This document shows positions 40,724 through 41,465 of a stretch of DNA of 51,177 nucleotides, piece after piece. The notes under the pieces were generated by a model. It made no database searches, was not told the origin of the DNA, and worked only from the letters and a program-made list of their open reading frames with translations. Numbering within the stretch: position 1 is the first letter of the stretch; each line of letters starts with the position of its first letter. The translations under genes and the position numbers were made by a program. The DNA comes from Phycisphaerales bacterium (GTDB lineage: Bacteria; Planctomycetota; Phycisphaerae; UBA1845): the NCBI GenBank assembly GCA_013140575.1, contig JABFSN010000035.1, forward strand, positions 1-51,177, written 5' to 3'.

Positions 40724-40770
40724 CCAGTCGCGGCAGCAATCCCAACCCGACGAACGCCGCCGCAGGTGCT

Positions 40771-41436
40771 GGTGCGAGAATCCCTTCTCGCACCCATCTC
40801 CGCAGGAATCCCTTCCTGCGAATTCTAAAGATCGAGCGAGTCCATCTCCATGCAGATATGCGTTCTCCCCGCGTACCATCCGGCCGAGCTATACCACCAG
40901 TCCTCCGGCGTTGCGACCAGATTCTTTCGGACCGGGTTCTCGTGGAGATATCGCAGCTTCTGCTGCAGGACTGGGTGCGACGAAATCTCCTGCGGATGAA
41001 ATCCGTCCTCCCAAAACGAGAACTCCCCGCGCTGCCGCCGGGCGCGCTGGGCGGCGCTCTCCAGCCACGCCAGCACAGTTTCGCGCCTATCTGCGACCAG
41101 CAGGTCGTGGATCGTCCGCGACGTGAATCTCTTGAAGTCGCGCATCATGGCGTGCAGGTCGTCGGCCGCGGCGATGAGGTGCAGGTGGTTCGGCATGACG
41201 ACGTACGCAAAAAGTTGCAGGCCCTTTTTCGCCCGGCAGAACGACAGGGATTCAATGACGGGGTCGATGTATCGGGCATCGATGAAAACGGGTGTCCAGT
41301 CGAGAATCGTGATCGTGCAGAAGTAGGGCAGATTCTCGCCGGCCTGATAGCGAGTCATGGCGGCGAGACTACCGCCCGGTCGAATTCGCGGGAAGGGATT
41401 CCCGCGGGAGGGGGTGCGAGAAAGGATTCTCGCACC
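40771..41436. mobile_element. RAYT element with nested hairpins on both sides
   Basis: The transposase gene is enclosed by two hairpins on each side in mirror order. Left: GGTGCGAGAA/TTCTCGCACC, loop TCCC (40771-40794), then CGCAGGAA/TTCCTGCG, loop TCCC (40801-40820). Right: CGCGGGAA/TTCCCGCG, loop GGGA (41387-41406), then GGTGCGAGAA/TTCTCGCACC, loop AGGA (41413-41436). Outer stems are identical and loops are reverse complements or close. This is the form expected of a REP-associated tyrosine transposase with its own REP sequences. Confidence 0.85.
40825..41358 (-). CDS. REP-associated tyrosine transposase (Y1/HUH family)
   Basis: A 177-residue HUH-type single-strand transposase relative of IS200. 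The HUH motif is VVMPNHLHLI with H58-x-H60. The family tail is clear: FWEDGFHPQEI, QKLRYLHENPVRKNLV and WWYSSAGWY. The segment where a catalytic tyrosine is expected reads MMRDFKRFTSR, with Phe where some relatives have Tyr, so I cannot name the nucleophile with certainty. Start ATG 41358 is chosen because further upstream the frame runs through the right-hand hairpins. Such genes are usually single-copy and tied to dispersed REP hairpins. Confidence 0.92.
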   Translation of the reverse strand: MTRYQAGENLPYFCTITILDWTPVFIDARYIDPVIESLSFCRAKKGLQLFAYVVMPNHLHLIAAADDLHAMMRDFKRFTSRTIHDLLVADRRETVLAWLESAAQRARRQRGEFSFWEDGFHPQEISSHPVLQQKLRYLHENPVRKNLVATPEDWWYSSAGWYAGRTHICMEMDSLDL

Positions 41437-41465
41437 AGCGGGCAACGCCCTGACGGTGTGCAAAC

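Follow-up and report, generated by a model that had tools for sequence, protein, structure and literature searches.

The analysed window, a stretch of 51,177 nucleotides from a Phycisphaerales bacterium (contig JABFSN010000035.1), very probably contains a RAYT/REP system (REPtron), i.e., a single-strand-DNA HUH transposase gene bordered on both sides by its own recognition hairpins in inverted orientation, which are accompanied by about 100 non-autonomous copies in the genome. In the best reading, the REP of this system is a GCT-footed, often double hairpin that is found in direct arrays, rather than an inverted pair with a GTAG tag. RAYTs are commonly referred to as domesticated transposases, which spread REPs and do not move themselves. 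The system described here is of a known kind, and its unusual features appear to be the GCT foot, the often directly repeated double hairpin, and movement of the whole unit. With its exact ends in common, its very regular recognition unit, several full copies within a single genome and many related hosts, the clade would make it possible to investigate how REPs are spread, whether the unit that bears the gene is still mobile, and whether a GTAG foot is indispensable or only one of several solutions.

The hairpin-flanked unit comprises positions 40768-41439 of the window and has the following composition (the support for each feature is given in brackets):

40768-40770, plus strand: GCT foot of the left double hairpin, a candidate C|T cleavage site (GCT precedes most genomic copies)
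40771-40794, plus strand: outer hairpin hp1 with a 10-bp stem and the loop TCCC (reading of the window, inverted-repeat search, shuffles, genomic copies)
40801-40820, plus strand: inner hairpin hp2 with the 8-bp stem CGCAGGAA and the loop TCCC, 6 nt past hp1 (a second hairpin follows most genomic hp1 copies)
40825-41358, minus strand: gene for the RAYT, a TnpAREP-like HUH/Y1 transposase of 177 aa with the HUH histidines H58/H60, the tyrosine Y137 and the asparagine N141 (NF047646, Y1_Tnp, alignment, fold)
41387-41406, minus strand: inner hairpin hp2 of the inverted right doublet, stem CGCGGGAA (reading of the window, inverted-repeat search)
41413-41436, minus strand: outer hairpin hp1 of the inverted right doublet, minus-strand loop TCCT (reading of the window, inverted-repeat search, shuffles)
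41437-41439, minus strand: AGC, the GCT foot of the right doublet and right end of the unit (similarity between unit copies ends at GCT and AGC, further hairpin copies aside)

It was verified that double hairpins are arranged as mirror images around the transposase gene, as the preliminary description of the window had claimed. The outer stems are identical over 10 bp (read on the plus strand, GGTGCGAGAA TCCC TTCTCGCACC on the left and GGTGCGAGAA AGGA TTCTCGCACC on the right), and the related inner stems of 8 bp are one compensated pair apart (left CGCAGGAA TCCC TTCCTGCG, right CGCGGGAA GGGA TTCCCGCG). The loops of the inner pair are exact reverse complements, those of the outer pair nearly so. 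An inverted-repeat search retrieved the whole arrangement as a single 58-nt inverted repeat (40768-40825 and 41382-41439) with 88% complementarity, and the outer hairpin was absent from 100 of 100 dinucleotide-preserving shuffles of the window. The neighbours of the RAYT gene were identified by a Pfam profile search as a VTT-domain (DedA-like) gene and an amino acid permease gene.

The assignment of the gene as a RAYT was upheld by a profile score above the cut-off, an invariant HUH motif and the Y---NP context of the tyrosine. The 177-aa protein scored 105.4 bits with NF047646, the NCBIfam model for REP-associated tyrosine transposases (cut-off 80). Pfam detected Y1_Tnp alone (24.4, cut-off 23), and no C-terminal HTH-type domain was found with it. 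In the preliminary description the catalytic tyrosine had been called not obvious (FKRFTS). An alignment of nine sequences including rayT of E. coli K-12 (taken from NC_000913) led to the rejection of a missing tyrosine: FKRFTS aligns with IKKQFT of the E. coli protein, and the tyrosine lies further on, as Y137 in the context YLHENPVR, the E. coli counterpart of which is YIYINP. The invariant columns include H58, H60, Y137, N141, P142 and V143, and Y137, N141 and P142 align with Y115, N119 and P120 of E. coli. The tyrosine context Y---NP is described for class-2 TnpAY1 proteins, and N119 of E. coli TnpAREP takes the role of the metal-site glutamine of IS608 (PMC6006769); Y115F is a catalytic mutant of the E. 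coli enzyme (PMC8266576). Because these two E. coli residues correspond to Y137 and N141, the predicted HUH/Tyr/Asn catalytic set of the window RAYT is complete. An AlphaFold2 model built from seven sequences had a mean pLDDT of 74.8 and a pTM of 0.74. Solved structures were matched only weakly by sequence alone (best E 0.18). With the model, Foldseek retrieved 29 PDB matches at E<=0.001, all of them titled transposases (ISDra2, IS608, IS200, 4er8 and two unnamed), with moderate TM scores to the query of 0.38-0.56; 4er8 is a REP transposase on a REP hairpin.

By its motifs, and not by a tree, the protein can be likened to subclass 2.6 of TnpAY1. It shares with this subclass the NH[LIV]H context of the HUH motif and a YIH[QN]NP-like tyrosine context, which fit Table 1 of PMC6006769, and also extra residues between the post-HUH helix and the W motif relative to E. 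coli rayT; a further common feature is that the hairpins lack GT[AG]G and are repeated in the genome (PMC6006769). The described members of subclass 2.6 are mostly from Bacteroidetes and have weaker, atypical structures (PMC6006769), whereas perfect stems of 8-10 bp and relatives in Phycisphaerae are found here. The Y1 HUH fold and end hairpins are shared with the IS200/IS605 family, but the tyrosine context of that family is Y---Q and that of the window RAYT is Y---NP (YLHENP), so that the protein does not belong to it by this motif; in addition, the unit has terminal inverted repeats, and the IS200/IS605 family is described as being without such repeats (PMC2817692).

The preliminary description had left room for stems that occur only in this window. 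The genome of the same organism (G000), a 5.05-Mb draft of 268 contigs, was therefore searched with up to three mismatches. The symmetric hairpin pattern was found at 119 places, and the oriented pattern with the loop TCCC at 108 places, compared with 0 for a reversed control. The 108 oriented copies show that the outer hairpin is not confined to the RAYT locus. The flanks were examined at 100 of the 108 places, which yielded 102 distinct copies (up to four mismatches). The counts of stem pairs and spacings that the preliminary description had asked for were obtained from these copies: a second hairpin was present behind 85 of the 102 hp1 copies, at a distance of 6 or 7 nt in 81 of the 85, and in five of the 85 cases it was an hp1 that follows in tandem (stem TGCGAG). 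The loop TCCC was found in 72 of the 85 second and 62 of the 85 first hairpins. The repeat unit of G000 is mostly GCT-hp1-(6-7 nt)-hp2, with two hairpins of the same orientation and the same loop, but different stems.

Among the members of the order, four additional genomes were analysed in part-samples (G003, about 30 of 35 places; G035, the loci of 30 of 195 places; G051 and G044, 20 stretches each). The trinucleotide GCT was located immediately before hp1 in 81/102 copies of G000, 29/29 of G003, 56/59 of G035, 43/56 of G051 and 23/34 of G044, in total 232 of the 280 copies. The GT[AG]G foot of canonical REPs (subclasses 2.2, 2.4, 2.5, 2.7 and 2.8) did not characterize these 280 copies, which have GCT instead. 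The second hairpin was common in G000 (83/99) and G051 (40/54), and was found in a minority of copies in G003 (13/29), G035 (12/57) and G044 (12/34). Behind hp2, no conserved 3′ cut site could be established, just a weak A-rich tail. Paired stem changes were counted in copies with exactly two changes, which are related and not independent of one another: in hp2 the changes were at partner positions in 8 of 17 copies (expected 6.7%, binomial 5e-6), and in hp1 in 5 of 16 (expected 5.3%, binomial 1e-3), four of which have the same outer-pair change.

REPINs are likewise non-autonomous hairpin repeats that are tied to a RAYT (PMC3116915). They are inverted REP pairs, which account for 93% of the 430 doublets in P. 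fluorescens SBW25 (PMC3116915), whereas here hp1 neighbours within less than 400 bp mostly have the same orientation (75 same and 16 opposite in the five genomes; 16 and 1 in G000). An inverted REP pair as the repeat unit was therefore not found, with the exception that G044 (3 same, 7 opposite) and G003 (3 and 3) had no excess of direct neighbours. Left half hairpins were present just upstream of 19 of the 102 complete G000 copies, which is no clear excess over random windows (2367 of 19703, 12%), and right half hairpins downstream of the 102 copies were not found. At six loci (L029, L059, L064, L068, L085 and L095) a left half (GGTGCGAGAATC or similar) abuts a complete copy and has no matching right half.

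An alternative is that the doublet is itself a minimal IS200/IS605-like element. In this case hp1 would be the left and hp2 the right end, both on the same strand and recognized by their shared loop, a 60-nt single-strand circle would move, and the RAYT gene would be carried only occasionally. The two hairpins on one strand, the mostly common loop TCCC, the nearly fixed spacing of 6-7 nt and the direct orientation of neighbours, which is unlike REPINs, are in accordance with this alternative. But many copies in G035, G003 and G044 have no recognizable hp2, and tandem arrays of hp1 only exist, so that hp2 is not always needed; the sequence behind hp2 offers no established 3′ cut site beyond the A-rich tail, and the excess of direct neighbours is missing in G044 and G003. 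This alternative overlaps with the preferred reading and is regarded as rather unlikely; the likelihoods given here for the alternatives are not meant to add up to certainty.

Next to the REP copies, the distribution of the RAYT itself was analysed, using assemblies that, except for E. coli, are all drafts or derived from metagenomes. RAYTs with more than 60% identity were defined as close; the next best match within the family had 32%. Any RAYT match (E<=1e-10) was present in 27 of the 51 genomes of the family, and a close one only in G000, G003, G035 and G044. Among 52 genomes of the same order outside of the family, six, including G298, have a close RAYT with 62-81% identity (E<=1e-30), so that nine other genomes of the order contain one (61-81%). 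The close relatives include metagenome-assembled genomes titled Phycisphaerae, i.e., DeMMO2_2 (81%) and DeMMO2_9 (80-81%); the latter also has a RAYT fragment where one of its contigs ends. The DeMMO2_9 genome is G051, with the same places as G298, and G044 likewise matches the DeMMO2_2 genome G052. One close copy was found in nine of the ten genomes and three in DeMMO2_9; the cut-off fragment of the latter (L109), a fourth copy, was left out of the counts.

The preliminary description would have been contradicted by close homologues without adjacent hairpins. A hairpin was present upstream of all 12 RAYT gene copies, the window copy included, beginning 67 to 98 nt before the start codon used. 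The nearest downstream hairpin was inverted in 10 of the 12 copies and direct in G035 and G204. Of 397 genomes of the class, 40 contain the hairpin when two mismatches are allowed, and 39 of these belong to the 98 genomes of the same order. Within these 98 (a count that does not include G001, G007, G015, G018 and G031) it was carried by 10/10 genomes with a close RAYT and 29/88 genomes without one (Fisher 4.5e-5, omitting G401, which has one copy and is outside of the order); the median copy numbers were 36.5 and 0, respectively. Hairpins without a close RAYT were also present in G001 (23) and G007 (8), and G369, in which no close RAYT was detected, holds 95. The proposed tie between the RAYT and REP hairpins is supported by the 108 genomic copies together with the hairpins beside every close homologue examined.

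An additional link between gene and repeat was observed in G035. A T.T mismatch at stem pair 7 is present in 55 of the 59 genomic copies examined and in 6 of the 7 hairpins of the RAYT locus. Because the mismatch is common to both, RAYT and hairpins of G035 are pointed to as a cognate pair by their sequences. In G051 the mismatch occurs in 9 of 56 copies and is absent from the RAYT ends. The hairpins of G035 (also L115) are often in tandem arrays with a spacing of about 40 nt.

According to PMC6006769, REPtrons do not appear to be transposed in one piece. When seven distinct units were aligned, six of them (G000, G044, G003 and the three of DeMMO2_9) showed similarity from GCT to AGC, with none visible outside of these ends, further hairpin copies aside. 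The seventh, from G035, has no inverted right end. The three full units of DeMMO2_9 have the same ends and different flanks, and two of them are located 3 kb apart on one contig. On the basis of these three, the RAYT unit seems to move as a whole, and the clade looks like an exception to the apparent failure of REPtrons to do so, both as judged from draft assemblies. In G003 the unit is located at a gene junction, and none is present at the corresponding junction in G004 and G001. In G001 the matches to the two G003 flanks are separated by 518 bp of other sequence, so that G004, at 71% identity, is the only clean empty site for the G003 unit. Not all unit sites are independent, because G003 and G264, which belongs to another family, carry their units in the end of one and the same gene, at slightly different insertion points, and stretches of 35-67 codons are common to the flanks of G125, G279 and two neighbouring DeMMO2_9 copies. 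For the window unit, the dedA-permease junction was tried as an empty site and failed: a permease orthologue (E<=1e-100) is present in only two of the 51 family genomes, its own and G044, and in G044 dedA is not beside the permease.

A different explanation is that the RAYT is domesticated and immobile and has a host function, that the hairpins are retained for transcription termination or RNA stability, and that extra gene copies arose via segmental duplication or horizontal transfer. RAYTs have been described as apparently stable, usually with one full-length gene per REP type (PMC6006769), and both the single close copy in nine of ten genomes and the persistence of hairpins in 29 genomes without one would fit. 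However, a duplication would bring flanks along, and thus the six units that end at GCT and AGC speak against segmental duplication. Domestication is considered unlikely.

Long duplications flank a few copies. The G003 unit is located between 90-bp direct copies that are 88% identical, and G004 has this junction once. The left copy ends 2 bases before GCT, and the right copy starts 7 bases past the outermost AGC; the former retains the end of one gene and the latter the start of the next. The unit of G264 is in the same gene end, and therefore the G003 duplication may postdate the insertion. Similarly, about 130-138 bp (83%) are found on both sides of one doublet at L065, and about 120-128 bp (91%) around one hp1 at L071, where the left copy ends 21 nt too early, at a half hairpin, and lies near a contig start. 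The flanks were compared with the hairpins masked, because neighbouring hairpin copies that match each other inflate unmasked scores. Scores of at least 30 were obtained at 15 of 273 places (8 of 161 loci), compared with 1.4 places per shuffled round, and 148 of the 161 loci remained under a score of 18; several of the high-scoring places are tandem arrays (L087 with a 156-bp period, L099, L214) and not target duplications. The long flanking duplications at few copies are only a lead and not a result. It is quite doubtful that the RAYT still transposes as a complete unit that leaves target duplications of variable length, about 90-140 bp, which would require independent C|T nicks on the two target strands, with the inverted GCT ends joined there; such duplications are not reported for IS200/IS605 or REPs in the parts of the literature consulted.

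RAYT genes are normally located between inverted REPs (PMC2817692). With the REPtrons of Enterobacteria, Pseudomonas and Stenotrophomonas the present system shares an HUH/Y1 protein with Y---NP, inverted hairpins around the gene, many genomic copies and CT at the foot (PMC2817692, PMC8266576). It differs from them in the foot, which is GCT here and GT[AG]G there, in the repeat, which often consists of two unlike hairpins in direct orientation, and in the complete unit, which is present at different sites, three of them in one genome. The described REP foot classes are GTAG and CGTC, with members reported in Planctomycetes (PMC3733652), and a GCT-footed or Phycisphaerae REP family was not named in the paper titles and abstract openings retrieved (subscription papers, preprints and supplements being outside of this scope).

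The 58-nt inverted repeat could instead be the double-palindromic terminal inverted repeat of a TIRYT element (TIRtron; Di Nocera 2013) and not a REP. RAYT-like genes are found in long inverted repeats, some of which are double palindromic and some repeated in the genome, and a close precedent for a double hairpin comes from P. putida and P. fluorescens, where repeats that consist of a degenerate GTAG-1 REP linked to an unrelated stem-loop occur in hundreds of copies (PMC3733652). But 20 of the 26 described TIRYTs fall into subclass 2.1, and all of these have a C-terminal domain of the HTH type (PMC6006769), whereas Y1_Tnp is the only domain found by Pfam here, and no GTAG remnant was seen at the foot; assignment to the TIRtrons is improbable, and the difference to RAYT/REP is partly one of naming.

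Under the preferred RAYT/REP reading, the enzyme would recognize the hairpins as single strands that are exposed during replication or transcription. Tyr137 would cut at the foot of hp1, GC|T; the enzymes of E. coli and Stenotrophomonas cleave at C|T (PMC8266576). The freed end would then be joined to other DNA, so that doublets, and sometimes the whole gene-bearing unit, could spread. We infer from the comparisons described above that the RAYT acts on its flanking hairpins; recognition of the hairpins by the enzyme, the C|T cut site, a single-strand intermediate and present activity are the putative elements of this scheme.

Several additional observations were made in G000. At L087 (C223:4392-5039) five doublets are arranged in tandem, each together with roughly 100 bp of flank that recurs every time. 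Immediately in front of some hairpins with a CCT, TCT or CTT foot and not GCT (L044, L051, L054, L088, and L092 at two places), there is a distinct sequence of about 45 nt (like TTTTCATCCCCAATGGCGATC...); it is perhaps another repeat family that was joined to the hairpin family. The start of C155 (L076) and a place near the end of C197 (L078) share one hairpin copy with the same flanks, and therefore the two contigs probably overlap and this copy was counted twice genome-wide. The RAYT model had 10 matches in G000, two of them within one gene. Other RAYT-family genes of this genome adjoin different hairpins (L017, L019, L103, L104, contigs C159 and C164), e.g., CACGGGCAAGCG-TACT-CGCTTGCCCGTG and CGGACAACGG-GGTA-CCGTTGTCCG at C164, and therefore G000 seems to host several RAYT/hairpin systems.
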